Made by a program: the position numbers and the translations under genes | Assembly: GCA_001458075.1 (NCBI GenBank) | Contig: LN899469.1 | Span: 62,001-126,000 of the forward strand | Length of the DNA: 64,000 nt | Direction: 5' to 3' | From: Idiomarinaceae bacterium HL-53 | GTDB taxonomy: Bacteria; Pseudomonadota; Gammaproteobacteria; Enterobacterales; Alteromonadaceae | The notes under the pieces: generated by a model | The model's input: the letters and a program-made list of their open reading frames with translations, nothing else | Database searches by the model: none | Told to the model about the DNA's origin: nothing | Part shown: positions 869-32,527 of the stretch, one piece after another | Numbering within the stretch: position 1 is the first letter of the stretch | Layout: every line of letters starts with the position of its first letter

Positions 869-888
869 GGTCAGACTGAAGTCTGACC
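869..888. repeat. Family I REP palindrome between rfaH and ugd
   Basis: GGTCAGACTGAAGTCTGACC forms a 9-bp perfect stem. The flank at about 849-868 (GGAACATGTCAG) matches the spacer of the 83-bp paired elements elsewhere, so this looks like a half element that lost its partner. It lies 10 bases after the rfaH stop and before the ops leader of ugd. It could attenuate transcription out of rfaH, but no T-tract follows, so a terminator role is inferred only. Confidence 0.8.
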
Positions 889-897
889 GAATCGAAC

Positions 898-1389
898 CTA
901 AAGCGCTTTTAACGCTCGTTCCTCTATTTCAATTCTTTGCTGCTTGCCTAGCATGTCTAGCAACACTAGGCATCTTTCTTCGCCCTTTGGCATTTGGTAA
1001 ACAGCTTGCAAGCCTGCAAAAGGGCCTTCGTTTACTTCAACTCTAGAGCCAACCTTAAACTGTGATTCAATTTCGTGTTCGTGATCGATTTCAAATTGTT
1101 TAAATTCGTCAATTACTTGGTTTGGAACAGGTCTAGGTACGCCGCCAAAGCGCACAAATCCATTCACACCTCGTGTACTACGAAGCGCATTAAAATTAGC
1201 TGTTTCCGGATTTAGCTCAATGAAAAGATAGTTAGGAAAGAGTGGCTCATGTACCACAGTTCTTCGACCACGCACGGTTTTCTTGATATGAATACGTGGC
1301 AAACACGTTGCATAACCTTGGTTTTCAACGTTTTCTTTCGCACGCGCTTCCTGCCGTGCTTTGCAGTGTAAAAGGTACCAAGCTGACAT
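898..1389 (-). CDS. rfaH: Transcription antiterminator RfaH
   Basis: RfaH is a NusG paralogue that joins RNA polymerase at ops sites and couples transcription to translation in long horizontally acquired operons. The product is 163 residues (E. coli RfaH is 162). The NGN domain spans about 1-100 and starts MSAWYLLHCKARQEARAKEN, with the PLFPNYLFIEL segment near 49-59. A KOW-type C-terminal domain covers about 112-163 (VGSRVEVNEGPFAGLQAVY), the part that in E. coli refolds from helix to strand. An AGGAA ribosome site precedes the ATG. It is transcribed toward ugd, whose leader carries an ops element, so regulator and probable target are adjacent. A dedicated paralogue for this operon is possible; only a genome search would tell. 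Confidence 0.93.
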   Translation of the reverse strand: MSAWYLLHCKARQEARAKENVENQGYATCLPRIHIKKTVRGRRTVVHEPLFPNYLFIELNPETANFNALRSTRGVNGFVRFGGVPRPVPNQVIDEFKQFEIDHEHEIESQFKVGSRVEVNEGPFAGLQAVYQMPKGEERCLVLLDMLGKQQRIEIEERALKAL

Positions 1390-1464
1390 ACTGCGAAATT
1401 CCTTTCCCTAACTTTCTTACCGGTAGTTTGTTGTCGTTTATTTTGACTACCATTTAGCGAAATG

Positions 1465-1493
1465 ATTGTACGTGATCGAGTAAAAAAGTTAAA
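1465..1493 (-). promoter_or_regulatory. Candidate sigma-70 promoter of rfaH
   Basis: Reading the minus strand, a -35 TTTAAC (1488-1493) and a -10 TACAAT (1465-1470) are separated by 17 bases, about 70 bases upstream of the rfaH start. This is the best promoter-like pair in the 243-base divergent gap between rfaH and the metallo-beta-lactamase gene. Found by eye only. Confidence 0.45.
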
Positions 1494-1632
1494 GCGAACG
1501 ACACACTCAATTGAATGAATTTCGAAAGTTTTGTTAAAGGTTTTCACTTTGTTTACTTATTCACCTATGCTAGGTGTTCTTATCTAGCTTTTTAAATTCA
1601 TAAAACCAAATACTTATGAAAGGAACCTGAAC

Positions 1633-3069
1633 ATGGACGTACAATTTATCCACCACGGCGCTCGCGAGGGCGTTACTGGCTCTTGCCACGAACTTCGTTT
1701 TGCTTCTGGCGATGCGCTGATTGTCGATATCGGCTTGTTTCAAGGCGCAGAAGTGTCGGGTGCAGGCGCGGATTCTAATCAGCAAGAAATTGAATTTCCG
1801 ATTGAGCATATTAAGGCGTTAGTGATTACTCACTGCCATATCGATCATGTTGGGCGGTTGCCTTGGCTGCTTATGACAGGTTTTCGTGGGCCCATTTATT
1901 GTACTGAAGCCACTGCGCACTTGTTGCCTATGGTGATTGAAGATGCGTTAAAAATTGGACTCACACGCGATCGGAAATTGATTGCTGGGGTGTTGGGCGT
2001 GATTGAGCGGCTGTTGGTGCCTGTGGGGTATGATGAATGGGTTAAGGTAGATGCTTTGCCGTGTTCGATAAGGTTTCGGCAGGCGGGGCATATTTTGGGT
2101 TCTGCTTTTGTTGAGGTGCGTGTGCCTCGGTCAGACTTCAGTCTGACCTGTATATCTGGGGATGAAGCGAGACATAGGTCAGACTCAAGTCTGACCGGAG
2201 AAGACGACTTAAAAGTCGTCTTCTCGGGCGACCTAGGCTGCAAAGGCTCCCCTTTGCTCCCTGATCCGGCGCCACTCGAGAGAGCCGATGTATTGGTGCT
2301 TGAAAGCACGTACGGCGATAAAAACCATGAAAACCGAGCAGAGCGCCAGCAGCGTTTACAAACGGTGGTGGAACGATGCGTACGTGATCGAGGAACGGTG
2401 TTGATTCCTGCGTTCAGTATTGGCCGCACCCAAGAACTTTTATATGAGCTTGAAGATATTCTGTACCAATATCAGCAGTCTGATCCCACATGGAAGGACA
2501 TGCTGGTGATTCTCGACTCGCCCATGGCTGCGAAATTTACCGAAAAATATAGAGTGATGCGTGATTTGTGGGATAAAGAGGCAAAATCTCGCATTGCAGA
2601 AGAGCGCCACCCGCTCAATTTTGAGCGCCTACACATAATTGACTCGCACGAAGAGCATCAACGTATTGTGCAATACCTTAAAGAAAGTGGTGATCCTTGC
2701 ATTGTCATTGCTGCAAGCGGTATGTGTACCGGTGGGCGTATGTTGAATTATCTAAAAGCCCTACTCCCCGACCCTCGCACCGATGTTTTGTTCGTGGGGT
2801 ACCAAGCAGCAGGTACGCTAGGACGTGATATTCAAACCTACGGGCCGAAAGGAGGATACGTTGAGCTTGATGATGAGCGCATTTGGATAAAAGCTGGGAT
2901 TCATACCTTAGGTGGCTATTCTGCCCATGCCGACCAGCAGGAATTGATTGATTTTGTGCAAACGGCAGAGCATATCGGTGAGATTCGGTTGGTGCATGGC
3001 GATGCAGAGGCGAAGGCAGTTTTGGCAGAGAAGCTTCGGGGGCTTGGGTACTCGGTAGTGATTCCGTAG
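1633..3069 (+). CDS. MBL-fold/beta-CASP RNA-processing exonuclease-like protein carrying an in-frame REP insertion
   Basis: A metallo-beta-lactamase fold hydrolase of the RNA-processing type (Ysh1/CPSF73-like family). The Zn-binding THCHIDH motif is at residues 66-72. The beta-CASP and RNA-specificity parts follow: VFSGDLG, ESTYGDKNHENRAER, PAFSIGRTQELLYEL, ASGMCTGGRMLNYLKALL and GGYSAHADQQEL. AGGAAC precedes the ATG. Residues about 166-198, between FVEVRVP and the strand leading into VFSGDLG, are encoded by two family I REP palindromes plus a third perfect palindrome, and the reading frame is kept. Bacterial relatives join these two strands by a short loop, so the insert probably forms an added surface loop. 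The stop codon TAG borders a family III palindrome shared with the convergent hipA remnant. The natural substrate is unknown. Confidence 0.88.
   Translation: MDVQFIHHGAREGVTGSCHELRFASGDALIVDIGLFQGAEVSGAGADSNQQEIEFPIEHIKALVITHCHIDHVGRLPWLLMTGFRGPIYCTEATAHLLPMVIEDALKIGLTRDRKLIAGVLGVIERLLVPVGYDEWVKVDALPCSIRFRQAGHILGSAFVEVRVPRSDFSLTCISGDEARHRSDSSLTGEDDLKVVFSGDLGCKGSPLLPDPAPLERADVLVLESTYGDKNHENRAERQQRLQTVVERCVRDRGTVLIPAFSIGRTQELLYELEDILYQYQQSDPTWKDMLVILDSPMAAKFTEKYRVMRDLWDKEAKSRIAEERHPLNFERLHIIDSHEEHQRIVQYLKESGDPCIVIAASGMCTGGRMLNYLKALLPDPRTDVLFVGYQAAGTLGRDIQTYGPKGGYVELDDERIWIKAGIHTLGGYSAHADQQELIDFVQTAEHIGEIRLVHGDAEAKAVLAEKLRGLGYSVVIP
2129..2196. repeat. Pair of family I REP palindromes inside a coding sequence
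   Basis: Two copies, GGTCAGACTTCAGTCTGACC at 2129-2148 and GGTCAGACTCAAGTCTGACC at 2177-2196, are separated by 28 bases instead of the 43-44 in the other pairs. They are read through in frame as RSDFSLT and RSDSSLT within the MBL-fold protein. Confidence 0.9.
2198..2225. repeat. Perfect 28-base palindrome inside the MBL-fold gene
   Basis: A 13-bp perfect stem (GAGAAGACGACTT and its complement) with a 2-base AA loop follows the REP pair directly. It encodes GEDDLKVVFS, so it overlaps the return to conserved protein sequence. Its arms differ from the three REP families. Confidence 0.8.
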
Positions 3070-3090
3070 GTGCTGCATTGCAGCACTTAC
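3066..3090. repeat. Family III palindrome between convergent genes
   Basis: GTGCTGCATTGCAGCAC (3070-3086) is bordered by GTAG on the left and TTAC on the right. The TAG at 3067-3069 is the stop of the MBL-fold gene. The TTA at 3087-3089 is the TAA stop of the convergent hipA fragment. The 8-bp stem could act as a bidirectional terminator. The GTAG foot resembles the tetranucleotide that RAYT enzymes recognise. Confidence 0.8.
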
Positions 3091-3887
3091 TTCAGCTGCT
3101 CACTGTGTGGCTGAATGGCGAGATATTGAATTTCTCTCAACATCCTAAGTTCCCCTGCTTTACTCGAATAATTGGGCGCCGTTTCTAAGCGCCGATATTC
3201 TTGTTCCATCGCCTGCGTTAATTTTTGCACAAGCTCTGTAATTTCCTTTTCCGCAATTTGGCGGCGCAAACCAAAGCGCTCTGCCACTTCGATAAGGTTT
3301 TGTTTTCGCACTTGGCCAAAATACAACGCACTCCCCAATGGCTGCGACAACATTTCATTTTGTGCCTCACCTGTTGGCGCATAAATAGTTGTCGAGAGTA
3401 AATCGTAATGGGGCAATAGCTCAATGTCTTGGTTGCGGTAGCTAAAAGATAGATTTTTTAAATGTGCGTCGCCGTTCCCTACCAAGAAATTAAACACGAG
3501 CCAACGGAAAATCTTGAGTGCTGTAAGACCCTGTGAACGACATAGCTGCTTAAGTTGAAGTAATGTTTCAATGTTACTTTGTCGATATTTCGCTCCAGCA
3601 GATAAAGCCAATAGCTGGCAACCGTCTAACACGTGTATTCGCTCAATCTGAGGTGCTTTTCCTATGCGATCAAATCTCTCCACCAGATAAAACGCTTCTG
3701 GAACATAGTGAATACTCACCTCAGGAACCTGCAGGCCCGCAGCTCTTGCCAGGCGCATGATCGTATATTCGTTTCGTACCGTGAAATAATATAACTCTGG
3801 CTCGGTATGCTCCGGTTTTAAAATATGGGTTGATGCCGCTTGCCCCACCGGCTCGTATAATAAGTCGTCTTGTTGCACCACCAGCAT
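3087..3887 (-). pseudogene. hipA: HipA-family kinase, C-terminal fragment (frame-disrupted hipA)
   Basis: HipA is the serine/threonine kinase toxin of hipBA modules, known in E. coli to phosphorylate glutamyl-tRNA synthetase. This fragment holds the kinase core: STHILKPE, FYLVERFDR, the catalytic-loop motif GNGDAHLKNLSF and the metal-binding HYDLLST motif. It ends with the usual helical C-terminus. The reading frame is -1 relative to the upstream N-terminal fragment, and the two overlap by about 70 bases. The Gly-rich segment (typically S-[IL]-[AS]-G-x-Q-x-K) is reduced to FLAQHKMLVV before the first Met, so some 30-60 residues of a normal HipA seem deleted at the junction. A natural split system (HipS/HipT) was considered, but HipT proteins keep the Gly-rich loop. 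The TAA stop borders a family III palindrome. Confidence 0.72.
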
Positions 3888-4624: not shown

Positions 4625-4649
4625 GTACGTGCTGCATTGCAGCACTTAC
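4625..4649. repeat. Family III palindrome after the outer-membrane-like gene
   Basis: GTGCTGCATTGCAGCAC (4629-4645) is identical in its core to the copy at 3070. Its TTA border at 4646-4648 is the TAA stop of the minus-strand gene that ends at 4646. Confidence 0.8.
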
Positions 4650-5236
4650 CGAGAGACGATCGCTGGGTATTTGTACCCACTTTCGAAGAAGCTGTACGAG
4701 AACCCAAAATGGAAATAAGGCTCCATTTGCTCAGCGGGTACTATCACGCCGAGTGTGATGCCTAATCCACCACCAAAGCTTAGGTGCGCATTGAGCTCTG
4801 CGAAGGCATAACTGTTACTGGTGCGTTTGTCGCTGGGGAGTCTTGCTCTGCGGCTGTTGCTCGCAGGTTCGAAGTCGATAGGATCGCCAAGATTCCATTT
4901 TGCACTCTCAAACGCTTGGTTCACGGTAAGTGACGCAAGCACCATATCGTCGTAGAAGCTTTTCCAAAAGCCCGCGCCGATACTTGCGGTGAATGCGTCA
5001 AGCTGCACCTCACGGTTTTCTTGAAACGTATTCCAACCTTGCACGTCAATGTCACTGTCTATATCGAAAGTGTGTTTATGGTTACCAATACTGCCTTGCA
5101 CGGTGAAATTGAGCGTGTCGAAATAGCGTTGTACGGAGAGTACGAAGTCGTCACCACTGCCCCAGTAGGCGCCTAAATCGGCGTCGGTTTTGAACTCACC
5201 GTAATGGCCTTCTCGAGTTTCTTGGCCATTTTTCAC
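4646..5236 (-). pseudogene. C-terminal barrel-like part of the upstream lipoprotein, separated by one in-frame TAA
   Basis: The stretch has alternating strand-like sequence with aromatic residues (DLGAYWGSGDDFVLSVQRYF, FHFGFSYSFFESGYKYP), typical of an outer-membrane beta-barrel half. It is in the same frame as the lipoprotein gene ending at 5249: past that TAA the frame reads on as RIPYVKNGQETREG without a break. The only local start is a GTG at 5236 with no ribosome site. I therefore read it as the distal part of one roughly 687-residue protein, cut by a nonsense codon or expressed by readthrough. An independent gene starting at the GTG is the alternative. No family was recognised. Confidence 0.6.
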
Positions 5237-5248: not shown

Positions 5249-6709
5249 TTAACTTGCGCTTGGCTCACCGCCTAGCCGTGCAGTGCTAATACCTACTCGC
5301 CAGCCGTGTGAGTATGGCTCTCGGTAGCGCGGCGCTTCATATTGCTGCTCATAAACTTGTTCATTTTGCAGCTCTACTAAGTCTTGGGTAATTTGATAGT
5401 CGGGATCAAAGCCGTTGAGTCCTCGTCTACCGACGCGAATCGCATAAGAGCCGGCTTCTGCAAGCTCTTGGTGAAAGGTGTTGCCATTCGAGGTTTGCCA
5501 ATCATCGCTGTCTCTTCGAAGCTCAATCATGCCTTCTCTATCGTTGACGCTCAGGGCCAGTGAGCCGTATTGCCGTGCTTCTAGCTCTGCGTTTACAAAG
5601 GCAAACGCAGCGCCATTTGGGATTCGTAATGTTTCTTCACGTGCGCGGTAACGCTCTGATCTTATAGAGAGTTGGTAGTTTTGACCGCTTGGTAATGGGT
5701 GACGGTTCGGCGAGCCTAAGCTTTCGTTGTTAATTCGTACGTTGGCGTCTATCGGGTCGAGGTAGAAATACACCATGGCTTCGCTGGCATTGGTCACGGC
5801 GGTTTTGGTGTAGCGGTCGACCTCTTGAAAGCGCTCAATTCTCGAGCCTTCAACGGTAATATCGCCGGTACGCATCACTAATGAGAAGTTTTGATTGATA
5901 TCGTTGAGCGGTACGAATGCCGTGAGGCCATTGCTATCGGTGAGTAACGCTTGTTCTGCACTGTTCATTCTTAGGTAAACGGTTGCCGAGCGTTGTGGCG
6001 TGCCGGTGGCTTCGTGAATGAGGGCGAAGGCTATGCGGTTGCCGTTTTCGTGCAGAATGGGCAAGGCTTTTAACGCTCTTACACTCGCGTCTGCAACCTC
6101 TTTGAAGAAACTTTCGAGATTAGCTTGGCTGCCGTTAGCTGTAATAAAGCTTTCTTTAAGTACGTCGTCTCTACGGGCAATATTGTAGCCTTGCAGCGCG
6201 TTTCTTAACCGTGCGGCGGGCTGAGTACGTTCGATTTGTTCAATTTGGTATACCGCGTTGAGTGCGGGAGCTTTTTGCCGCGCTTGTTGGGTGAGCCTTG
6301 CAACTGTGGGGCGGTCTAGGCGCAGGCGCACATACCAAGTGTTGTCGTTGCGGTTACGTTGCTCGTAATCCACCTGCAAGTTTTCTAGCTCGACGTTCGA
6401 CCAAGAGAACGACGAGGCCACAAACTCGCTCGTAACTTCTTGATCGCTCGTGGCTCTTAAATCTTGTCGAGTCTCGGTGCGCACATTCACCAGTATCATT
6501 TCGGCAAGCTCATCACGCGCGGCCTGTAATGCCCGCTCACGCGTTTCACCGAAACCATGCCCATAAGCAAACCGATCGCTTTGCAAACCAATCGTGGTGA
6601 GTTCATCTCTCGCCGTCGGCCTTTGCTCCGGTTTTGCAGCACAGCCAGTGATGAAAAGCGCCAAAAAAATGATTGGGGTCAGAGGAAAAGATCCTCTGAC
6701 CCCAATCAT
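5249..6709 (-). CDS. LPP20-type lipoprotein with N-terminal REP-encoded signal peptide
   Basis: A 486-residue predicted lipoprotein. From ATG 6709 the signal peptide reads [12 protein letters not shown], then a hydrophobic run to the lipobox LFITGC (Cys 23). Residues about 40-150 resemble the LPP20 domain of the gene upstream (FAYGHGFGETRERALQAARDELAEMI against FYGFGEGVSQDSNLAARQARLNAQAQLAEA). PEGA-like and carboxypeptidase-regulatory-like strands follow (ATVYLRMNSAEQALLTDSNG; ANVRINNESLGSPNRHPLPSG), then the first strand of a barrel-like region just before the stop. Translation is probably coupled to the upstream gene, whose TAG lies seven bases before. A longer start at 6751 exists but precedes the signal peptide. 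The first 14 residues come from a family II REP. Function unknown. Confidence 0.7.
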   Translation of the reverse strand: MIGVRGSFPLTPIIFLALFITGCAAKPEQRPTARDELTTIGLQSDRFAYGHGFGETRERALQAARDELAEMILVNVRTETRQDLRATSDQEVTSEFVASSFSWSNVELENLQVDYEQRNRNDNTWYVRLRLDRPTVARLTQQARQKAPALNAVYQIEQIERTQPAARLRNALQGYNIARRDDVLKESFITANGSQANLESFFKEVADASVRALKALPILHENGNRIAFALIHEATGTPQRSATVYLRMNSAEQALLTDSNGLTAFVPLNDINQNFSLVMRTGDITVEGSRIERFQEVDRYTKTAVTNASEAMVYFYLDPIDANVRINNESLGSPNRHPLPSGQNYQLSIRSERYRAREETLRIPNGAAFAFVNAELEARQYGSLALSVNDREGMIELRRDSDDWQTSNGNTFHQELAEAGSYAIRVGRRGLNGFDPDYQITQDLVELQNEQVYEQQYEAPRYREPYSHGWRVGISTARLGGEPSAS

Positions 6710-7321: not shown

Positions 7322-7404
7322 GGTCGGGTTTTAACCTGACCTGTGTACTGACATGTTCCCAGATCTAGGAAGCCCGTATACATAGGTCAGACTGAAGTCT
7401 GACC
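7322..7404. repeat. Family I REP pair (83 bp) at the pgi 3' end
   Basis: GGTCGGGTTTTAACCTGACC (7322-7341) and GGTCAGACTGAAGTCTGACC (7385-7404) flank a 43-base spacer containing GACATGTTCCCAGATC. The spacer is the reverse complement of the one at 11653-11695. The right palindrome supplies the last residues (GQTSV) and TGA stop of pgi. Confidence 0.88.
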
Positions 7405-8910
7405 GAGATCTCGCATGAGCGAGATAAGTGCATCGGTGGATTCATCGAAGTGGCGCTCTTCGCCTTCGAGCGCTGCGAGTGTTTCTTCGGCGACTTTCTT
7501 GCCGAGTTCTACACCGGGCTGGTCGAAGCTATTCAGATTCCAAATCACACCTTGCGTGAATACTTTATGCTCGTATGCGGCAATAATCGCGCCGAAACTC
7601 TCAGGCGTGAGCTCTTGCATGGCAAATAAACTGCTCGGATGCTCTCCAGGATAAAAGTTCCTCGCGATGCCGTCTTCAGAGCCATACGCCATCAACTTGC
7701 GATGGGCCAAACAATTCGCAACGGAAAGGCGCTGCTGGCTGTCGAAACTCTCTTGTACATTGGCTGAGAACCCAGGCGCATTGCGCTTATAAACCAGCAC
7801 GAAATCAGCAGCAAACTTGTCGAACCCCTGGTGTAAGTGCTGGTAAAAAGCATGTTGCCCATTGGGCCCCAAACCGCCCCAAATTAAAGGCCCCGTCGGG
7901 TAATCGATGCCTTCGCCACTTGCTGTACACTGCTTGCCATTACTTTCCATATCGAGCTGCTGTAAATAAGCCGGTAAATGCAAAAAACGACCGTCGTAAG
8001 CCAATACTGCAATGTTATTAATGCCCCGCACTTCTCGGTTATAAAGCCCGCACAGCGCCATAAGCATGGGAATGTTTTCCAATAACGGTGCGTCTGCAAA
8101 ATGCTCGTCCATCGCTCTGGCACCCGCAAGCAAACGCTCAAACACTTGTAACCCACAGGCAATTGCAATGGGCAAGCCAATCGCCGACCACATGGAAAAA
8201 CGGCCGCCAATGCTTTGGCCAAATGTGAGTTGATGAGCTGGTGGAATTCCTAAATCGGACATCTTCACCGCATTCGCTGACACACCGATAACATGATGCT
8301 CGAACCAATCTCGCTCAGTTTTCGAATTTGCTGAGAAACATTCATTAACCCAAAGTTTCACGGTATCGACGTTTGCGAAGGTATCAATGGTGCCAAATGA
8401 TTTTGACGCTACAATAAAGAGTGTCGTTTCCGGATCGATATTAGGTAAAATCTCGTAGAGTTGCGCTCCGTCCATCGAAGAAGCAAAGTGCGCCCGTATC
8501 ATGTGAGTTTGGTGATCCGCAGCGAATTCTTTCAGTGCAAAACTGGCCATAAGAGGTCCAAGATCTGAGCCACCCACGCCAATGTTCACCACGTCCGTAA
8601 TCACCTTGTTAGTCGCGCCACGCCAATTTCCGCTTCGGATCTTTCTTACTATCTTGGCAAATTTAGAGTCGTCTCCTTTTCTCAGCACAGATTCATCGCT
8701 TCTACTCAAGACATGGCTTACAGCACGCCCTTCAGAGACATTCTCGTATGTACCGGCTAATAATGCTCGTTTCTTTTCTTCAAAATCCTTCGGCAAACGC
8801 TTCTCTGTAAATTCAGAGAGCTTCACGTCTGAGAGAAACTGATAACTCCAATCAAAAATAAGCCCATTAAGGTCAACTTGGCGAAGCGAATGTGATTTTT
8901 TCCCTAACAT
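7387..8910 (-). CDS. pgi: Glucose-6-phosphate isomerase
   Basis: Interconverts glucose-6-phosphate and fructose-6-phosphate in glycolysis and gluconeogenesis, in the cytoplasm. The 507-residue product shows NIGVGGSDLGPLMA, the FGQSIGGRFSMWSAIGLP signature, QLDMESNGK with the catalytic Glu, and EHPSSLFAMQ and NSFDQPGVELGK near the end. ATG 8910 is preceded by GGAAG; an upstream in-frame GTG at 8928 is less likely. It starts 22 bases after galU, so the two are probably co-transcribed, tying hexose-phosphate flux to UDP-glucose supply. The final GQTSV and the stop codon come from a family I REP. The native C-terminus probably ended near LMRDL. Confidence 0.96.
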   Translation of the reverse strand: MLGKKSHSLRQVDLNGLIFDWSYQFLSDVKLSEFTEKRLPKDFEEKKRALLAGTYENVSEGRAVSHVLSRSDESVLRKGDDSKFAKIVRKIRSGNWRGATNKVITDVVNIGVGGSDLGPLMASFALKEFAADHQTHMIRAHFASSMDGAQLYEILPNIDPETTLFIVASKSFGTIDTFANVDTVKLWVNECFSANSKTERDWFEHHVIGVSANAVKMSDLGIPPAHQLTFGQSIGGRFSMWSAIGLPIAIACGLQVFERLLAGARAMDEHFADAPLLENIPMLMALCGLYNREVRGINNIAVLAYDGRFLHLPAYLQQLDMESNGKQCTASGEGIDYPTGPLIWGGLGPNGQHAFYQHLHQGFDKFAADFVLVYKRNAPGFSANVQESFDSQQRLSVANCLAHRKLMAYGSEDGIARNFYPGEHPSSLFAMQELTPESFGAIIAAYEHKVFTQGVIWNLNSFDQPGVELGKKVAEETLAALEGEERHFDESTDALISLMRDLGQTSV

Positions 8911-8931
8911 ATGATTCTTCCGTAGCACTTC

Positions 8932-9894: not shown

Positions 9895-9923
9895 GGGGTC
9901 AGATCACTTTTTAATCTGACCCC
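9895..9923. repeat. Family II REP at the ruvB 3' end
   Basis: GGGGTCAGAT and ATCTGACCCC arms (10 bp) around a 9-base loop. On the minus strand it is read as GGQIKK followed by TGA (9904-9906), the end of ruvB. Stem followed by A/T-rich sequence could serve as a terminator. Confidence 0.85.
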
Positions 9924-10908
9924 CTAGATGCAAGAAGGCACGCTGAGTGGCGACTCGCCCGCGGGGCGTGCGTTGAATAAAGCCTTGTTGAATTAGGAAA
10001 GGCTCGATAACATCTTCGATGGTGTCTTTCTCCTCGCCGATGGCGGCGGCGAGGTTCTCTAAGCCAACGGGGCCGCCGTCGAACTTATCGATAATCGCTT
10101 CGAGTAACTTACGGTCCATGTAATCGAAGCCGGCCTTGTCTACGTCGATCATATCGAGCGCTTTTGAGGCGACTTCGGCGGTAATATGGCCGTCGGCACG
10201 CACTTCTGCGTAATCTCGTACTCTTCTTAGTAATCGATTGGCGATTCGTGGGGTGCCTCGCGAACGAGCGGCCATTTCTCTTGCGCCCTGTTCATCGAGT
10301 TTTAAATCTAAAAAGTGTGCGGAGCGTTTTACAATCGTAGTGAGATCTTCCACGTTGTAAAACTCTAGCCTTTGGACAATGCCGAAGCGGTCTCGTAGCG
10401 GGCTGGTCAATGCGCCAGCTCTGGTGGTCGCCCCCACAAGTGTGAATGGCGGCAAATCGAGTTTAATGGAGCGTGCTGCGGGGCCTTCGCCAATCATAAT
10501 ATCGAGCTGGTAGTCTTCCATGGCTGGATAAAGTACTTCCTCTACCACAGGGCTTAGGCGGTGAATTTCGTCGATAAAGAGTACGTCATTAGGCTCAAGA
10601 TTGGTGAGCAGCGCTGCGAGATCGCCCGCCTTTTCTAATACGGGGCCAGACGTGGTTTTAATACTCACCTGCATTTCGTTCGCAATGATATTGGCGAGCG
10701 TGGTTTTCCCGAGGCCTGGGGGTCCGAAAATAAGTACATGATCGAGCGCATCGCTTCTTGCGCGGGCGGCTTCGATGTATATGCCGAGCTGTTCCACCAC
10801 ATGCGCTTGCCCAGTGTAGTCGGCGAGTTTTTTCGGGCGAATGGCTCGGTCGATAACTTCGTCTTCGTTGGTAGCTTGGGGCTGGACCATGCGGTCTGGT
10901 TCTATCAT
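9904..10908 (-). CDS. ruvB: Holliday junction branch migration ATPase RuvB
   Basis: The AAA+ motor that drives branch migration of Holliday junctions with RuvA. The 334 residues (E. coli 336) show Walker [12 protein letters not shown], Walker B FIDEIHR, sensor GATTRAG and the C-terminal winged helix ending [19 protein letters not shown] 10908 has a GAGGAAA ribosome site; an upstream in-frame start at 10944 lies in a repeat. It follows ruvA, separated by a family III palindrome. The last residues GGQIKK and the stop are encoded by a family II REP. Confidence 0.97.
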
Positions 10909-10924
10909 TGTTTCCTCATTTTCG

Positions 10925-10949
10925 TATGTGCTGCACTGCAGCACCTACA
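10925..10949. repeat. Family III palindrome between ruvA and ruvB
   Basis: GTGCTGCACTGCAGCAC (10928-10944) starts directly after the TAG stop of ruvA (10945-10947 on the minus strand). It lies within the ruvAB transcript and would fold between the two genes, so it may tune their relative expression. Confidence 0.8.
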
Positions 10950-11559
10950 ACATCGCTTTGAGTGCCGTGCGGATGAGCTCTTCGGAGCTCATGTCGTCGG
11001 TGGCTACTTTTCTAATCACTTGCTCGGCTTGCGCGGGTTTGTAGCCCAGCGCCACCATCGCACTCAGTGCTTCTTCTTTCGCGTTTGGTGTTTGCGGCGA
11101 CGCAATATCCATGGGTTTCGCACCTGGGAGTCCGGTGTCGTAATCGGCGCCAGTGAAGTCTTTTAAGCGATCGCGCATTTCTACCACGAGGCGCTCAGCC
11201 GTTTTCTTACCGACGCCCGGTATTTTAACCAAGGTCGTCACATCGTTATGCTGCACCGTATAAATAAATTGCTTGGCGCTCATGCCGGAGAGAATAGTGA
11301 GGGCTAACTTGGGGCCAACCCCTTGCGCTTTAATCAGCAACCGGAATAGCGCACGCTCATCCGCAGTATTGAAGCCAAACAAGAGCTGCGCGTCTTCACG
11401 CACGACAAAATGAGTCCAGAGCGTTACTGGCTGGCCAGTTTCAGGTAGTTCATAAAAGCAAGTCATCGGCACACTCACTTCGTAACCCACACCGTTTACA
11501 TCAATCAAAAGTTCAGGGGGATGTTTCACAACGAGCGTACCGTGGAGGCGACCAATCAT
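10945..11559 (-). CDS. ruvA: Holliday junction-binding subunit RuvA
   Basis: RuvA binds the four-way junction as a tetramer and loads RuvB. The 204 residues have the OB-fold N-domain ([31 protein letters not shown]), helix-hairpin-helix motifs ([18 protein letters not shown] and [20 protein letters not shown]) and the C-terminal domain III ([22 protein letters not shown]) that contacts RuvB. The gene sits between ruvC and ruvB in the order yebC-ruvC-ruvA-ruvB. Its stop codon borders a family III palindrome. Confidence 0.97.
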
Positions 11560-11632: not shown

Positions 11633-11715
11633 GGTCAGGCTTCAGCCTGACCTGTGTATTCGGGCTTCTTCGATCTGGGAACATGTCAGTATGCAGGTCA
11701 GGTTAAAACCTGACC
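11633..11715. repeat. Family I REP pair (83 bp) between ruvC and ruvA
   Basis: GGTCAGGCTTCAGCCTGACC (11633-11652) and GGTCAGGTTAAAACCTGACC (11696-11715) flank a 43-base spacer containing CTGGGAACATGTCAG. Length and spacer match the pair at 7322-7404 in the opposite orientation. The right palindrome encodes the end of ruvC (GQVLT, TGA). Confidence 0.88.
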
Positions 11716-12213
11716 GAGCCGACTGGTGTGCGCATGGCAAATAGCTACGGCGAGTGCATCGGCGGCGTCGGCTTGGGGCTTGCTGGGAAGTTTAAGGATA
11801 TGCATCACCATGTGTTGCACCTGTTCTTTCTTAGCGGCGCCAGTGCCGACCACCGCTTGCTTGATTTGCCGAGCTGAGTACTCACTTACCGCTAAACCCG
11901 CTTTGGCCGCGGCCACAATTGCCACGCCTCGCGCTTGACCTAGCTTCAAAGCAGAATCAGGGTTACGCGCCATAAACACCTGTTCAATGGCAAATTCAGT
12001 GGGCGCGTATTGTTCGATAAGTTCAGCGACGCCGTTGAAGATAATCTTCAAGCGCTCCGCCATCGTCGGTTCGCCTTCGGCGCTGGTGGCCACACTGGTA
12101 GACGCCGCACGAATACAACCGCTCCCTAAATAAGTGAGCCGGCTGCCGTTCTTTTGAATAATGCCAAACCCTGTAATGCGTGAACCTGGGTCGATACCTA
12201 GAATAATTGCCAA
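11698..12213 (-). CDS. ruvC: Crossover junction endodeoxyribonuclease RuvC
   Basis: RuvC resolves Holliday junctions by paired nicks. I chose a TTG start at 12213 because AGGTG lies seven bases upstream and it gives [17 protein letters not shown], matching RuvC, with a total of 171 residues (E. coli 173). A longer reading from 12309 runs through a repeat. Catalytic acidic residues are visible in GIDPG, FAIEQVF and the [14 protein letters not shown] motif. It follows yebC and precedes ruvA. The last residues GQVLT and the stop lie in a family I REP. Confidence 0.94.
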
Positions 12214-12231
12214 AGATGCACCTATTAAAAT

Positions 12232-12260
12232 GGGGTCAGATTTAAAAGTGATCTGACCCC
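12232..12260. repeat. Family II REP between yebC and ruvC
   Basis: GGGGTCAGAT and ATCTGACCCC arms (10 bp) around a 9-base loop. On the minus strand the element encodes the yebC end GSDHF and TAA, and lies just upstream of the ruvC ribosome site. Confidence 0.85.
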
Positions 12261-12970
12261 ACATTGTGATAAACGTTTTGCACGTCGTCGAGGTCGTCGA
12301 GAATATCAATCATTTTCATGACTGTCTCTGCGGTTTCGTCGTCTAGTTCTACTTTGGTGGCGGGTACTTGCGTTACTTCTGCGTGATCGGCTACAAGTCC
12401 TGCCGCATCGAGGGCATCTTTTACACTGCCGAAATCTTCGGGTGTGGTGAATACGTCGATAGCGCCGTCGTCGTAGGTGGTGATATCTTCGGCGCCGCCT
12501 TCGAGCGCGGCTTCCATGATTTTCTCTTCAGACGTGCCTGGTGCGAAACTGAGTACGCCCCGCTTGCTGAACAAATAGGCCACTGAGCCGTCGGTGCCTA
12601 AGTTGCCGCCGTGTTTACTAAAGGCGTGGCGCACTTCCGACACCGTACGGTTGCGGTTATCGCTCATGCATTCGACCATCACCGCAACGCCGCCTGCGCC
12701 ATAGCCTTCGTAGGTGATTTCTTCCATATTGTCGTTATCGAGCTCACCGGCACCGCGGGCGATGGCAGTGTCCACTGTGTCGCGCTTCATGTTGTTTGAG
12801 AGCGCTTTGTCGATGGCGGCACGCAAGCGAGGGTTGGTAGCAGGGTCGGAGCCACCGGTGCGTGCACTTACCACCAGTTCTCGAATCAATTTGGTGAAAA
12901 TCTTGCCCCGCTTCGCGTCTTGCGCAGCTTTGCGGTGTTTAATGTTCGCCCATTTTGAATGTCCTGCCAT
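12242..12970 (-). CDS. yebC: YebC/PmpR-family DNA-binding regulatory protein
   Basis: A TACO1/YebC-family protein. Members have been described as DNA-binding regulators and, more recently, as helping ribosomes through proline stretches. The 242 residues begin [22 protein letters not shown], the conserved family start, and continue with [19 protein letters not shown] and [28 protein letters not shown] precedes the ATG. It lies between aspS and ruvC in an order widely conserved in gammaproteobacteria. The last residues GSDHF and the stop are encoded by a family II REP. Confidence 0.95.
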
Positions 12971-12995: not shown

Positions 12996-13015
12996 GGTCA
13001 GACTTCAGTCTGACC
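12996..13015. repeat. Family I REP at the aspS 3' end (half element)
   Basis: GGTCAGACTTCAGTCTGACC is followed, to about 13045, by sequence (GCTCGTGTGTTCCCAGATCG) matching the spacer of the pair at 16978-17061. The second palindrome is missing. Both parts are translated as the end of aspS. Confidence 0.85.
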
Positions 13016-14776
13016 TGTGTGCTCGTGTGTTCCCAGATCGAGCCCTAATTCTTTCAGCGCGGCTTCTGAGGCATACCCCGGTGCGTCGGTTAGTACGCAT
13101 GCGGCGGTGGTGGTTTTCGGGAACGCGATCACATCGCGAATGCTGCTTGCGCCCACCATGAGCATAACCAAGCGGTCGAGCCCGAACGCCAAGCCTGCGT
13201 GTGGTGGTGTGCCGTACTTTAAGGCTTCCAACAAGAAGCCGAACTTCTCTTTCGCTTCTTCTGCGCCAATGCCCAGAATTTCGAATACCGCAGACTGCAT
13301 TTCTGCGTTGAAAATACGCACAGAGCCTCCGCCTACTTCACAGCCGTTTAATACCATATCGTAAGCATCAGAAAGTGCTGCCGCTGGGTTCGCTTTCAGC
13401 TCTTCCGCGGTCACACCCACTGGCGAGGTGAACGGGTGGTGCAGCGCAGCAAATCCACCTTCAAATTCTTCAAACATTGGGAAATCGACAACCCAAAGTG
13501 GCTTCCAGCTGTCTTCAACTAGGTCAAAGTCTTGACCCACTTTCAGGCGTAACGCACCGAGCGCTTCGCTGACTACAGTGGCTTTGTCGGCGCCGAACAA
13601 CAAAATATCGCCGGTTTCGGCGCTTGTACGCTCTAGAATCTCCTTTACCGCTGCTTCCGGTAAGAATTTCAATACTGGAGACTGTAAGCCGTCCATACCA
13701 GCGTCTTTGTCGTTTACTTTGAGCCACGCCAAGCCTTTCGCACCGTAAATACCTACAAAATTCGTGTACTCGTCGATTTGCTTGCGGCTTAAAGAAGCAC
13801 CACCTGGCACGCGCAGAACCGCCACACGACCTTTCTCGTCGTTGGCGGGACCTGCAAATACTTTGAATTCAATGTCTTTGAGTACATCGGCCACGTCTAT
13901 AAGTTCGAGTGGGTTACGCAAGTCTGGCTTATCAGAGCCGTAACGGCGCATAGCTTCGGCATAGCTCATCACTGGGAACGAGCCCAAATCAACTTCAAGT
14001 AATTCATTGAATAAACCACGCACCAAGCGCTCGGTGGTGTCGCGCACTTCTTGCGCGCTCATAAAGGTAGTTTCGATATCGATTTGGGTAAATTCAGGCT
14101 GACGATCGGCGCGTAAATCTTCGTCGCGGAAACATTTCACGATTTGATAGTAACGATCAAAGCCCGACATCATCAGCAATTGCTTAAACAACTGTGGCGA
14201 TTGCGGTAATGCGAAGAACTTGCCTTCGTGCGTCCGTGAAGGCACCAAGTAATCGCGCGCGCCTTCTGGGGTGGCACGGGTGAGCATCGGTGTTTCGATG
14301 TCTAAAAAGCCTTCTTTATCGAGGAAACGGCGCACGGCACTCGTTACTTTCGCACGGAAAATCAGCTTTTCGCTCATTTCCGGGCGGCGCAAATCGAGAT
14401 AGCGGAAACGCAAACGCGCTTCTTCGCTCACTTGCGTATTAAAATCAATAGGAAGTGGCGCCGCTTTGTTCAAAATTGTCAGCTCAGAAGCTAGCACTTC
14501 CACACGCCCCGTCGCCATGCGGTCATTCACTTGCCCTTCTGGGCGCGCACGCACTTCGCCGCGTAACTGAATGCAAAATTCTTGGCGCAACGTATTGGCC
14601 AAATCGAACATGTCGTGACGATCCGGATCAAACACCACCTGCACAATACCGCTGCGATCACGCATGTCGACAAAGATGAGCCCGCCTAGATCACGACGAC
14701 GATGAACCCAACCTGCCAGCGTAACCTGCTGCCCTAACGCGTTCTCAGTAACTTCTCCACAATAATGACTGCGCAT
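12998..14776 (-). CDS. aspS: Aspartyl-tRNA synthetase
   Basis: Class II aminoacyl-tRNA synthetase charging tRNA-Asp. ATG 14776 gives [20 protein letters not shown] and 592 residues (E. coli 590); AGGAAATAAAAACACC precedes it. A longer reading to 15019 has no family support. The anticodon-binding OB domain ([20 protein letters not shown]), motif 2 ([19 protein letters not shown]), the GAD insert and motif 3 ([13 protein letters not shown]) are present. The C-terminal tail after LKELG ([13 protein letters not shown]) is encoded entirely by a REP half element, replacing whatever native end existed. Confidence 0.96.
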
Positions 14777-14845
14777 GGTGTTTTTATTTCCTGTTCTTTG
14801 TTTGACGACCGAGTCGATTCGAGCGGCGCCCGAAAAATGCCCTGT

Positions 14846-14875
14846 AGTATACGATAACGCCACCCCAGAAGTCAC
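14846..14875 (-). promoter_or_regulatory. Candidate promoter of aspS
   Basis: Minus-strand -35 GTGACT (14870-14875), 18-base spacer, -10 TATACT (14846-14851), about 70 bases before the aspS start, in the divergent gap with cmoA. Confidence 0.42.
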
Positions 14876-14940
14876 CCGCAAGTGGCTCGATTGCTCACCT
14901 TCAGGTACAATTCGCCGAGAATAAACGTAGGACACGAAAC

Positions 14941-15687
14941 ATGACATTTTCTCGCGATTCAATTTACGCCCAACCACTCGGTGAAGTGGCCGATTTCGCA
15001 TTCGACGAAAAGGTCGCAAATGTATTTCCCGACATGATTAGCCGGTCGGTGCCAGGCTACGCCACCATGGTGCAAACCATCGGTCATTTGGCCGGGAAAT
15101 TCGCGCAACCTAATACCCGTATTTATGATTTGGGCTGTTCGTTGGGCGCCTCCACCATTGCCATGAAGCAACACGTGCGTGCTGAGGGTGTCGAAATTAT
15201 TGGGGTGGACAATTCGACGGCGATGGTCGAACGCTGCCAAGCGCATGTAGACGCCTGGAAAGGCGATGTGGCGGTGACGATTCGCTGTGAAGATATTTTA
15301 GATACAGTTTTGGAGCCTTGCAGCGTAGTGGTATTGAATTTCACCCTGCAGTTCGTTGCCCCCGAACTTCGCGATGCGCTGATGCAGAAAATCTTCGACG
15401 CCCTTGTGCCCGGTGGCTTGCTGTTGCTTTCTGAAAAAGTACGCCATGAAGACACCGTAGCCGACCAAGTGTTAGTTGATTTGCACCACGACTTTAAACG
15501 CATGAATGGCTACAGCGATTTGGAAATCAGCCAAAAACGGGCAGCTATTGAGAATGTCATGCGCATCGATACGCCGGAAATTCACACTGAACGCCTACAG
15601 CGCGTTGGTTTCAGCTCAGTGCAGAATTGGTATCGGTGTTTTAACTTTACCTCTTGGTTTGCAATCAAAGGCGAACAAAGCGCATGA
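14941..15687 (+). CDS. cmoA: Carboxy-S-adenosyl-L-methionine synthase
   Basis: Converts SAM and prephenate into carboxy-SAM, the donor for the cmo5U modification of tRNA wobble uridine 34. The 248 residues show the family start ([22 protein letters not shown]), the SAM-binding [14 protein letters not shown], the segment [13 protein letters not shown], and FTLQFV. It overlaps cmoB by four bases (ATGA), so the two are translationally coupled. It is divergent from aspS. Confidence 0.97.
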
Positions 15688-17061: not shown

Positions 17062-17137
17062 GAGTCCGATTCCGCATTTACCTCATGGCTTTACTCTTCT
17101 TTGGAGTCTAATCTTAAATATTCATAAGGAGATGAAT

Positions 17138-17724: not shown

Positions 17725-17738
17725 GAAAACCGCACTTC

Positions 17739-22145: not shown

Positions 22146-22190
22146 GGGGTCAGATTATTTTTTAATCTGACCCCATTCTAATCTGACCCC
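22146..22190. repeat. Family II REP with an extra half site
   Basis: GGGGTCAGAT (22146-22155) and ATCTGACCCC (22165-22174) form a hairpin. A further direct copy of the right arm, ATCTGACCCC, lies at 22181-22190. The region encodes the end of the response regulator (GQIRMGSD). Confidence 0.85.
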
Positions 22191-23142
22191 ATTTTGCTAG
22201 GGTGGCGGTTAGGGGGGCCGTGAGTTGGTGGCTGTGGGCGGTGTAACTGCATTGGGCCCAGATGCCGAGGGCGAGGTCGGGGCGGCTTTCTACCGAGAGT
22301 TGAATAGCTTCCCCCGCATGTCCCCATTTTAATAATCCTGTATTGCCGTCTATCCAAATAGCGAGCAGATCGAAGGCCGAGCGGATGCGCGAATGGCAAA
22401 GCTCTGCATTCAAGCGCTCTAATAACCTTTCCGGCATACGCAAAATTCCCTCATGCCCGCTCATCCCTTGGCGAATCATAGGGTTTAATAAACTTTTCAA
22501 TACCAACAAGCCCAACACATTCTGCTCCGCGGCCGCCTGTGAGCGAGCCATCACCACCAACGCTTGGTTATTTGGAAAACGATGATAATCGAGCAATACC
22601 TGTTCGCTCGAGGTTTCGGCTACCTCAAAATCAACGCGACAACAAGGAAGCTCTAGTGCCTCATGAGGCAATAAATCGGCCTGTAATTGCTCCACCAACC
22701 CCTGATTTTCAAACAACACATCAATATGGTCGTCGAGCTCCCAACGCTCTCTCTCCCACGCATCTTCAAGACTTGTTCGCGTGAGGCAGTTCTGAATTGC
22801 GGTATCTAGAATATCGAGTTGAGCAAGTGGTTTTACTAAATAATCCCAAGCGCCCAACCGAACGGCTTCGCGAATATCGGCCATGCGTTCGGAGGCAGAA
22901 ATAACAATCACAGGTAACGTCGACATATTAAAAAGGAGATTCTCGAGAACTTTTAATCCGGAGATTTTTGGTAACTTGAGGTCACAGAGCACCACGTCTG
23001 GATGCTCTGAATTACACAACTCGAGACCGGTCTCACCGTCCTCTGCTGTTAATACCAAATACCCGCGTTGCAGCAGATATTTCTGAATGATGCCACTAAA
23101 TACGACGTCGTCTTCAATGAGTAACACCTTACTGCCCGGCAT
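22162..23142 (-). CDS. RssB-like response regulator with C-terminal phosphatase-like domain
   Basis: A 326-residue regulator with a receiver domain at about 4-120: acidic pocket IEDDVVF, phosphoacceptor in DVVLCDLKLP, ISAS and the YLVKPL lysine. After a helical linker (about 125-165) comes a degenerate PP2C/SpoIIE-like domain, as in RssB, the adaptor that delivers RpoS to ClpXP. Similarity to RssB is by layout and the receiver sequence (LLFNMSTLPVIVISASERMADIREAVRLGAWDYL region). An RpoS-adaptor role is inferred. The last nine residues and the stop lie in a family II REP; the native end was probably near TATLAK. Confidence 0.78.
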   Translation of the reverse strand: MPGSKVLLIEDDVVFSGIIQKYLLQRGYLVLTAEDGETGLELCNSEHPDVVLCDLKLPKISGLKVLENLLFNMSTLPVIVISASERMADIREAVRLGAWDYLVKPLAQLDILDTAIQNCLTRTSLEDAWERERWELDDHIDVLFENQGLVEQLQADLLPHEALELPCCRVDFEVAETSSEQVLLDYHRFPNNQALVVMARSQAAAEQNVLGLLVLKSLLNPMIRQGMSGHEGILRMPERLLERLNAELCHSRIRSAFDLLAIWIDGNTGLLKWGHAGEAIQLSVESRPDLALGIWAQCSYTAHSHQLTAPLTATLAKWGQIRMGSD

Positions 23143-31065: not shown

Positions 31066-31098
31066 TTGACCTCTAGGGCGCTCTAATAAATGGCCTGT

Positions 31099-31107
31099 AT
31101 ACTACCA
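31099..31107 (-). promoter_or_regulatory. Candidate extended -10 promoter of ccmA
   Basis: The minus strand reads TGGTAGTAT, an extended -10 (TGN then TAGTAT), about 35 bases before the ccmA ATG. No good -35 is visible, as is usual for extended -10 promoters. Confidence 0.35.
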
Positions 31108-31200
31108 TAATTAAGGTGCATTCTGCGACCAAAACCGAACGAAAATAATGAATCATGACAAGCACTTTAACCCTACTGCGAGGAGGGATATAGTGCACTT

Positions 31201-32199
31201 ATGGACAAGTTAAGTAACGCTCAAATGGGACAACTTTTGCGTCAGCTTTTGCAAGCAGACGCGTCGACACTGCTGCGCACCGGTGAAGGGAAAGCTGTGT
31301 CTGCAACGTCAAGCACGTTGTTGAACTCTCGCTCGTTATTTACGGGCACTGCGCAATTGCAAATTCCTCCGGCACTGCGACAAATTCTAGCGCAAGCCCA
31401 AGGCCCAGTGGGTACCCTACAAGCGTTGCAACAACTGCATAGCCAACCCGAACTGCCGCCGCAGGTACGCACACTCGTAGAGCAAGCCCTGAACCAAGCA
31501 AAACAACCTGCTTTTTCCCGTACAACGGTACAACAGTGGTTCGGCTTGAATGTAATGCAAGCACTCACGCAACCTCTCGCTCGGCCACAGGCCACACAGG
31601 GAGCGAATACACTCTGGTTACAATTCGCGCTGCCGTTATTACTTGCGAGCCTGAAAGGATCGCCTCGAGCTGATACAAGAGCGGCTCCATCTCCCGCGTT
31701 AAGCAATGCGTTATCGAATTTATTTGGGGGAAGTCTGCTCTCGCAACAGTTTTTGCGTGAATTGCAGAGTTCACTACAACAGGTACGCTTGAGCCAGATA
31801 CAACTTGCCGACTCCATGAGCCGCAATGAGCCCGACTACTATATGAGCCTGCCATGGCAAGTAGGTGAGGAAATCCGACCGATCGAGTTGTTGTTACAAC
31901 GGCGCAAGCAACAGCGGGAAAAAGATGAAGGCGAAGAAGGCTGGTTACTGTCGCTGCGCCTGCAAGTGAATCGCATTGGCCCAATGCTCGCGCGGGTTCG
32001 TTGGAACGGCAGTGATGCTCAAATCATGATTTATACCGATAATGAAACGGCGTCCCGCTGGCTTCAACCGCATTTATTGCAATTAGAAACTAGGTTACAG
32101 GCCGAAGGAATTGCCATTGCAGCACTTACGGCACAAGTGGGTCGTATTCCCGCCAGTTTAGCTCCTGACCCAAACCAGCTCATTAAGGTGAGAGTATGA
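31201..32199 (+). CDS. FliK-like flagellar hook-length control domain protein
   Basis: A 332-residue protein with a long Gln-rich helical N-terminal part (about 1-215) and a compact C-terminal domain (about 230-320: LSLRLQVNRIGPMLARVRWN, IYTDNETASRWLQPHLLQLE). The latter resembles the FliK C-terminal domain that reads export-gate state. It overlaps by four bases the next gene, an FlhB C-terminal-domain paralogue, which is the natural partner of such a domain. The pair between ccm and che genes is seen in other Alteromonadales. It is probably not the main fliK. A GAGGAGGG ribosome site lies rather far (13 bases) from the ATG. Confidence 0.72.
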   Translation: MDKLSNAQMGQLLRQLLQADASTLLRTGEGKAVSATSSTLLNSRSLFTGTAQLQIPPALRQILAQAQGPVGTLQALQQLHSQPELPPQVRTLVEQALNQAKQPAFSRTTVQQWFGLNVMQALTQPLARPQATQGANTLWLQFALPLLLASLKGSPRADTRAAPSPALSNALSNLFGGSLLSQQFLRELQSSLQQVRLSQIQLADSMSRNEPDYYMSLPWQVGEEIRPIELLLQRRKQQREKDEGEEGWLLSLRLQVNRIGPMLARVRWNGSDAQIMIYTDNETASRWLQPHLLQLETRLQAEGIAIAALTAQVGRIPASLAPDPNQLIKVRV

Positions 32200-32459
32200 G
32201 TGGGCGTAAAGAAGAAAAGAAAGCAGTTGCGCTCCGATACGACGGAGTGAGTGCGCCGAAGGTCACCGCTCGCGGTTTCGAAGGGCTCGCCGATGAAATC
32301 ATTCAACTGGCCAAAGACGCCGGGGTATTAGTGCATGAAGATCCCGAACTCGCCAACTTCCTCGCCAAACTTGAAGTCGGCGATGAAATCCCCCGCGAAG
32401 TCTACGTCATCATCGCAGAACTCATCGCCTTCGCCACCTGGCTCAACCTCAAAGCATGA
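32196..32459 (+). CDS. FhlB-like protein: stand-alone FlhB C-terminal domain
   Basis: An 87-residue protein equivalent to the part of FlhB after the autocleavage site (KAVALRYDGVSAPKVTARGF, GLADEIIQLAKDAGVLVHED, VGDEIPREVYVIIAELIAFA). It lacks membrane helices and the NPTH sequence. In FlhB this domain sets export specificity with FliK; stand-alone copies (FhlB) can partly replace it in Salmonella. Coupled to the FliK-like gene by a four-base overlap. The TGA stop is the first codon of a family II REP array. Confidence 0.85.
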   Translation: MSGRKEEKKAVALRYDGVSAPKVTARGFEGLADEIIQLAKDAGVLVHEDPELANFLAKLEVGDEIPREVYVIIAELIAFATWLNLKA

Positions 32460-32527
32460 TTGGGGTCAGAGGAAAAAATCCTCTGACCCCAAATTCCTCT
32501 GCCCCCAAATTCCTCTGACCCCAATCA
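32457..32527. repeat. Family II REP array with three right arms, between convergent genes
   Basis: The hairpin of GGGGTCAGAGGA (32462-32473) and TCCTCTGACCCC (32479-32490) is followed by two more copies of the right arm, one with a mismatch (TCCTCTGCCCCC) and one perfect (32511-32522). The outer TGATTGGGG and CCCCAATCA ends supply the TGA stops of both convergent genes (32457-32459 plus strand, 32525-32527 minus strand). Confidence 0.88.

Follow-up and report, generated by a model that had tools for sequence, protein, structure and literature searches.

The window analyzed here is a stretch of 64,000 nucleotides from Idiomarinaceae bacterium HL-53, corresponding to C1:62001-126000 of a genome that consists of a single contig (C1) of 2,740,021 bases; positions without prefix refer to the window. 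Fifteen genes between 869 and 33010 end in or directly at short palindromes, which resemble repetitive extragenic palindromes (REPs) and stand around two genes encoding transposases of the REP-associated tyrosine transposase (RAYT) type, RAYT1 in the window and RAYT2 elsewhere on the contig. Repeat copies were located first in the window and then genome-wide with mismatches permitted, and the flanks and the ends of open reading frames (ORFs) were tabulated for each copy. Pairs and close groups of copies were merged into single events, as were the three copies of a larger block, which gave 16 insertion events for the window and 21 for the rest of the genome. For the latter and for the sister species G111, gene calls rest on ORFs (at least 70 or at least 100 residues) and were uncurated.

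The members of the three repeat families named in the original prediction, which was made from the letters of the window, were all recovered, but its family II separated into two sub-families. Family I comprised 23 copies genome-wide, 21 with an exact degenerate pattern and two with one mismatch. The exact pattern gave 0 matches when reversed as a control, and 23 copies is a low number for a REP family. Two or three copies were present at 10 of 12 family I events, with a start-to-start spacing of 48-78 nt (63 or 64 nt in seven). The pairs were mostly inverted, the flanks being judged by eye, and the pair at C1:255k was direct. The flanking tetranucleotide was GTAG at some copies and ATAG, GCAG, ACAG or others elsewhere. 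Family I looks like a GTAG-type REP, mostly arranged as inverted pairs; one of its 12 events was intragenic and five overlapped a coding end. Family IIa (18 copies genome-wide) has the form GGGGTCAGAT..ATCTGACCCC and holds the gene stop within the hairpin, and family IIb (9 copies), GGGGTCAGAGGA..TCCTCTGACCCC with a TGATT border, holds it in the border. Family III was represented by four exact copies, all with GTAG or GTAA on at least one side. A family III-like match at C1:2377422 was dropped (one mismatch, within an ORF, without a tag), and four matches with two mismatches were left uncounted, as were the family II matches with three mismatches at C1:2148568 and 2154038, the middle of which resembles a tRNA T-loop by eye.

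Gene ends at the repeats and in congeners

The last codons were printed for each of the fifteen genes predicted to take their stop from a repeat hairpin or its border, and 15/15 did so; the quoted tails were likewise all present in the window. In eight genes the stop lies within the hairpin and the last residues are coded by the repeat. Five of these carry family I and read GGT CAG ... TGA, namely pgi (7387..8928, minus strand; tail GQTSV) at an inverted pair at 7322..7404, ruvC (11698..12309, minus; GQVLT) at an inverted pair at 11633..11715, aspS (12998..15019, minus; GQTEV) at a single copy at 12996..13015, a gene for a DUF6170 membrane protein (16702..16995, plus; GQTSV) at an inverted pair at 16978..17061, and RAYT1 (17132..17722, plus; GQVKT), where three hairpins occupy the gene end and the sequence beyond it (17705..17821). 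The other three end in IIa hairpins. They are ruvB (9904..10944, minus; GGQIKK; hairpin at 9895..9923), yebC (12242..12970, minus; GSDHF; 12232..12260) and an RssB-like response-regulator gene (22162..23142, minus; WGQIRMGSD), the hairpin of which is joined by an extra 16-nt arm unit (22146..22190). The coordinates of ruvB, ruvC and aspS are those of the listed ORFs, whose true starts are probably internal. The common GQ frame of the five family I tails was rejected as evidence, as 5/5 has a chance of about 0.1 given a stop in the hairpin, and an antisense ORF at 12714-13013 ending in GQTSV was not counted.

In the remaining seven genes only the border triplet serves as the stop. Four of them adjoin family III hairpins, with a G before the stop in all four. 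The hairpin at 3070..3086 lies between two convergent stops, the TAG (border GTAG) of a metallo-beta-lactamase (MBL) fold, beta-CASP gene (1633..3069, plus) and the TAA (GTAA) of a HipA_C fragment (3087..3887, minus). Another at 4629..4645 adjoins the TAA (GTAA) of a barrel fragment (4646..5236, minus), and a third at 10928..10944 the TAG (GTAG) of ruvA (10945..11559, minus). The IIb border TGATTGGGG gives the TGA of cmoB (15654..16655, plus; hairpin at 16658..16686), of an FlhB C-terminal-like gene (32196..32459, plus) and of a DUF2802 gene (32525..33010, minus), the last two flanking a hairpin with two 16-nt arm units (32462..32522). The same border accompanies some copies at which no gene stops, such as the one at 6675, where it is found on both sides. 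This IIb hairpin (6675..6703), 13 nt past a stop at 6717, supplies no stop, and neither does a single family I copy at 869..888, 9 nt past the stop of a NusG-like gene. The prediction that most frames meet a stop in the arms was half right. Counted over direction and frame, more than half of the hairpin-core readings held a stop in family I (73/138) and IIa (67/108), but only 18/54 in IIb and 0/30 in III.

The ends of these genes were compared with those at 16 congeneric loci around ruvC, some of which are without some of the genes. The tails of seven of the eight tail genes are private. None of their congeneric orthologues in the 16 loci shares the tail; RAYT1 had no relative in these loci. 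The pgi product ends in RD-L-GQTSV, compared with RDI* in G110 (two loci compared), and that of ruvB in HLG-GQIKK, compared with HFG plus 2-7 other residues (16 loci). The congeneric RuvC proteins end in CHAHTRPWR*, CHAHTYQTLIRKARG and others (16 loci) and the YebC proteins in sequences like VYHN-AELPESAWD (11 loci), in both cases different from the tail found here. AspS has a different end, equal to or longer than those of its congeners (16 loci). The DUF6170 protein is shorter than its orthologues, 13 of which extend 11-36 residues past the last aligned position, compared with 3-8 residues here. The response regulator has another end in 11 orthologues, and in two of these the BLAST alignment spans the tail found here and the orthologue continues for 15 residues more. 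The exact family I pattern, the only family searched in this way, was found in 0/16 congeners and in 0/97 other genomes of the taxonomic family (two of the 97 being congeners), and therefore the family I tails look species-specific.

For the border genes, the comparison of native ends covered four of the seven (ruvA, cmoB, the barrel fragment and the MBL gene). RuvA ends at the same position in 16/16 congeners, so its tail has not been rewritten. The length of CmoB is about that of its orthologues (15 compared). The barrel fragment matches the C-terminal portion of a gene that G100 has as a single ORF, and its end agrees with that of this one homologue. The MBL protein stops within a few residues of the end of most homologues (11 compared), one of the 11 being about 20 residues longer. 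The idea of shared repeat-coded tails is thus borne out for eight genes but not for family III, which contributes the border TAG or TAA only.

Events in the genome, the beta-CASP loop and the sister species

Under a uniform null, 4% of events were expected at gene ends, and 13/16 were observed in the window (P 7e-16). A permissive null, which admits non-coding DNA and the last 12 codons, gave an expectation of 40% with 13/15 observed, the intragenic event being excluded (P 3e-4). Within the window 13/16 events supply a stop; outside it 4/21 do so, or 5/21 if a repeated ORF of 85 residues is counted. The recipients are a gamma-glutamyl cyclotransferase-like gene (C1:1024421), a second beta-CASP gene (2300093), RAYT2 (2708301) and a sulfotransferase-like gene (1386702). 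The 85-residue ORF ends in GSDHFLI and lies in a three-copy block taken as one event, hence the count of 4 or 5. The difference in stop supply between window and outside was significant (P 2e-4 or 8e-4); therefore, the original prediction had seen a local extreme. Rewriting on a genome-wide scale was rejected on these outside counts, and family I tails occur in 5/12 family I events, all five within 7385-17724 of the window. Repeat-coded tails hold for eight genes, but a systematic rewriting of C-termini is too strong a reading, as the four border genes tested keep about their native ends and few events outside the window supply a stop.

The other 17 outside events provide no supported gene with a stop; 13 of them follow an ORF stop at a distance of 3-57 nt, three (C1:1023968, 1542k and 1667k) have none within 60 nt, and one is the repeated 85-residue ORF. 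An ORF of 86 residues ending in HRSD at C1:16.5k was left out as unsupported. The three-copy block is at least 560 bp long (C1:856542, 1245492 and 2549546; L080, L081 and L070), with 99.6-99.8% identity between copies; it carries a family IIa hairpin, and its 85-residue ORF is without a Pfam match. All four families were enriched in 32 kb of the window (with P values of 7e-20 (I), 1e-3 (IIa), 1e-4 (IIb) and 6e-6 (III)), these values being post hoc as the window was picked for its repeats.

One insertion has to be added to those listed in the original prediction, a family I pair at 2129..2196 that is read in frame within the MBL gene. The encoded protein resembles the ribonuclease TTHA0252, the match being interrupted between residues 161 and 194, and the pair lies between strands 158-164 and 193-197. 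In an AlphaFold2 model with a mean predicted local distance difference test score of 80.4, residues 173-189 scored below 50, as did 38-53 and 364-366. Of 18 genomes with an MBL match, 12 were examined (the own genome, 10 congeners and one of the same order). The loop contained in-frame hairpin inserts in 5/12 genomes (window 2129-2196; L084, L086, L087 and L088), which belonged to at least three repeat families: family I here, a GTAG-tagged family in G109, with 11 further copies in a 16.9-kb locus (L051), and GGGGTC families in G099, G103 and G010. In the other 7/12 the loop is short and without an inverted repeat, so the insert is absent from those orthologues. Because G099, G103 and G010 are more closely related among themselves (75-82% identity), at least three loop insertions are needed, not five. 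A precedent is recB of Xanthomonas campestris and X. oryzae, where different REPs occupy about the same site in two species according to PMC3733652; the gene here is another one, and five genomes and at least three repeat families are concerned.

The sister species G111 holds 430 copies of another REP. In 384 kb sampled, 171 copies were found in 164.5 kb of its ruvC contig and 13 in 180 kb of another contig. Of 48 arrays, 12 abut a gene stop at a distance of exactly 0; every other distance up to 60 nt is represented at most twice, and 0 arrays begin 1-25 nt before the end of the stop. With the preceding base, the abutting stops were GTAG in seven cases, GTAA in four and ATAA in one. A G precedes 75/243 of the TAA and TAG stops of G111 overall, so the abutting stops show an excess (P 2e-5). 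The outer ends of the arrays were GTAG, GTAA or ATAA in 49/96 cases, the 12 stops included. Arrays were present at 11/75 of the GTAR sites at gene stops, 19/477 of those between genes and 17/3141 of those within genes. That stops are occupied more often than sites between genes (P 9e-4) may reflect preference or survival. The overall pattern would fit insertion behind GTAR, a motif that includes stop codons, with the loss of most insertions within genes, and is compatible with both of the options first suggested, targeting of gene ends and survival there. Hairpins lie directly behind ruvA both here and in G111, and because the end of ruvA is fixed in the genus, the stop can be the gene's own.

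Transposase genes and the spread of the repeats

Both RAYT genes encode the Y1_Tnp domain (PF01797) of IS200-like Y1 transposases (E 1.2e-14 and 2.7e-13). Two stretches of RAYT1 read by eye are presumably its HMH and YIELNPV motifs. RAYT1 is flanked on both sides by family I copies (17042 and 17705) and RAYT2 (C1:2707699-2708229) by IIb copies (C1:2707643 and 2708301), a putative cognate relation in both cases. The two genes themselves end in repeat-coded tails, GQVKT and GSEEKIL. The GGGGWSAS terminal inverted repeats (TIRs) of TIR-associated transposases, as described in PMC3733652, are matched letter for letter by the family II start GGGGTCAG, and RAYT2 may therefore belong to this kind, an assignment by motif alone; the repeats here are short hairpins of 29 nt. 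An ORF of 2698 residues directly adjoins RAYT2 and its repeats (L068 3841-11937).

The copies were concentrated locally in several genomes. Of the 23 copies of family I, 13 fall in the 17 kb that lead up to and surround RAYT1, and the others are at C1:14.7k, 16.5k, 255k, 474k and 2716.6k. In G099, 36/36 matches to the GGGGTC arm motif fall in C2:38-204 kb (about 166 kb), with a RAYT at 102 kb. In G010, 28/30 fall in C7:118-226 kb (about 109 kb), with a RAYT at 143 kb and the other two matches at 433 kb, and 14/18 fall within 91 kb of one contig in G103. The reversed motif gave 0-4 matches per strand and genome as a control. A RAYT is located 48-127 kb from ruvC on the same contig in 7/10 congeners with a clear hit (E <= 1e-20), and on another contig in three. 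The congeneric RAYTs are only 30-43% identical to RAYT1, their position near ruvC being kept and their sequence fast-changing. A search for RAYT relatives in GTDB contigs gave 16 stretches fitting a pattern, none of which encoded a relative. A link of the cluster to the replication origin was also considered and rejected; no dnaA was recognized by eye in the first 5 kb of the contig, and no claim on the origin is made.

The positions of the copies, the tails, the orthologue ends and the clustering are observed, and from them we infer insertion by RAYT, a target motif and selection. A RAYT-driven, mostly local spread of REP-like palindromes combined with survival at gene ends has in our estimate a probability of roughly 0.7. 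Several palindrome families, at least two of them standing around a RAYT-type gene, would spread mostly locally. A hairpin or hairpin pair would be inserted, in the GTAG-tagged families behind a tetranucleotide like GTAG or GTAA. Copies within genes would mostly be lost, and those at gene ends or in a tolerant loop would survive. If the tetranucleotide coincides with the native stop of a gene (NNG TAG/TAA), the hairpin would abut this stop and leave the protein unchanged, as suggested for family III and the G111 family. After an insertion a few codons before the stop, the hairpin would supply a new one, the TGA of CTGACC or a TAA or TGA in the loop (families I and IIa), and unrelated proteins would share a short tail because the stop comes from the hairpin itself.

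Several points weigh against this explanation. The native ends were deduced from congeners, an exact empty site not having been seen. Taken by themselves, the eight tail-rewriting events show no significant excess at gene ends under the permissive null (P 0.22). Three of the five family I tail genes were entered from the untagged side and the copy at RAYT1 itself is without a clear tag, so the idea of a GTAG target does not predict those stops. Families IIa and III were without an identified RAYT of their own here, IIa is largely dispersed (3/18 copies in the window), and the joint enrichment of all four families in one 32-kb stretch is not explained by nearness to a single RAYT. Two events of family I, at C1:255k and 474k, lie 176 and 395 kb from RAYT1. 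In G111, 11/48 arrays are inside ORFs called as genes, and a search of the whole genome gave no RAYT at E 0.001; a weak RAYT-like match on its ruvC contig (23% identity) had E 2e-6 against the sampled stretches alone. No RAYT was found in G103 with the query used.

A broader version of local spread is tentative and in our view rather doubtful. RAYT systems in the genus would spread hairpins mainly over a zone of about 100-170 kb centered on the transposase gene's surroundings in a cis-limited, distance-dependent way. This zone would be a long-lived workshop for protein ends and loops, and each turnover of a hairpin family would touch some of the same genes (ruvA, ruvB, aspS and the beta-CASP loop) again in different species. 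Its odds are lowered by the distant family I events (255k and 474k) and by the recB precedent.

The hairpins may instead be kept for a function, with stem-loops at stops protecting the mRNA 3' end or slowing terminating ribosomes, and selection placing them at genes such as ruvABC, yebC and aspS. The 13 of 17 outside events lying 3-57 nt behind an ORF stop agree with this, and according to PMC12306157 ribosomes stall at REPs that follow a stop within 15 nt. However, the stop lies inside the hairpin in the eight tail genes, where a terminating ribosome would probably hold the hairpin open, and the MBL gene carries a copy that is read in frame. Exact family I copies were not found in the 16 congeners, so a role conserved at any particular gene is not seen for this family. 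We regard a functional origin of the pattern as unlikely.

It is still less probable that the segment arrived in one block from a REP-rich related donor, together with the donor's repeats. Import would account for the enrichment of all four families in the same 32 kb, but one 20-kb locus of G100 holds relatives of the split lipoprotein/barrel gene, pgi, galU, ruvBAC, yebC, aspS, cmoAB and the DUF6170 gene (content was compared, not order). No donor was seen among the 16 congeners and 97 family genomes searched for exact family I, and family I also occurs at the five other sites of C1 given above. Ordinary intrinsic terminators, or palindromes that lie near stops by chance, would also place hairpins at gene ends, but this reading is very improbable given the copy number (21 copies fitting one degenerate family I pattern against 0 for the reversed control), the similar spacers of the pairs, the IS200-type transposase genes between the repeats and the fact that no T-run was seen in the family I unit.

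Relation to known repeats and neighboring features

REP insertion at gene ends is of a known kind, and the density of the local cluster is unusual. REPs that give stop codons to ORFs and REPs within genes are described (PMC3733652, PMC2817692), REPs of three marine gammaproteobacteria gather near their RAYT over up to two hundred kilobases (PMC2817692), and the RAYT of E. coli is reported to cleave its REP DNA at the tag (PMC3733652). Also described is an RU element (RU-1) that removed a native stop and extended the protein (PMC2759123). The GTAG REPs and REPtrons, the latter being a RAYT with its flanking REPs (PMC3733652, PMC2817692), share with the present repeats the short palindrome, GTAG in some copies, frequent pairing, flanking of and clustering near a RAYT, termini that give stops and some intragenic copies. 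In contrast, the copy number here is low (23 for family I), the stop often lies in the hairpin rather than in the tag, and four families occur in one segment. REPINs (PMC3116915) also consist of two REPs as a unit near a RAYT, a unit that here measures 83-84 nt in three cases; however, the tags of the family I pairs face inward (by eye), and the copies are far below the hundreds cited there for REPs. Rickettsia palindromic elements and enterobacterial RU elements (PMC3733652, PMC2759123) are likewise in-frame palindromes coding for peptide inserts, but are other repeat families, likened here by description.

In the accessible parts of the literature searched, with supplements outside the scope, no account of repeat-coded tails fuller than those of PMC3733652 and PMC2759123 was found, and shared hairpin-coded tails as such were not met. 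Neither were hairpins of several families in one beta-CASP loop or arrays exactly behind stops as in G111, no search having been aimed at the beta-CASP loop. The additions to what is known are a dense case, shared tails that are private, and a loop that has been used repeatedly. The 37 events in one genome, together with the 16 congeners, form a natural series for asking how REPs land, why they stay near the transposase and how frequently core proteins owe their final residues to selfish hairpins. For annotators, odd shared C-termini such as GQTSV and GSDHF in genomes of this type can originate in a repeat and are not to be taken for functional motifs.

Further features were found beside the repeats. 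At 4646-6751, a lipoprotein-like ORF of 500 residues and the barrel ORF form one ORF in G100 (L050) but two here, which meet near 5236-5249. The hipA gene (3087-4252) is broken into two overlapping ORFs in different frames, and a small ORF at 4242-4487 looks by eye like its helix-turn-helix (HTH) partner. Upstream of the HTH/hipA pair, at 4504-4626, a 23-nt repeat (TTTATGCGATTGCATAAATTTAG and variants) occurs three times with a spacing of 50 nt and is a possible operator.

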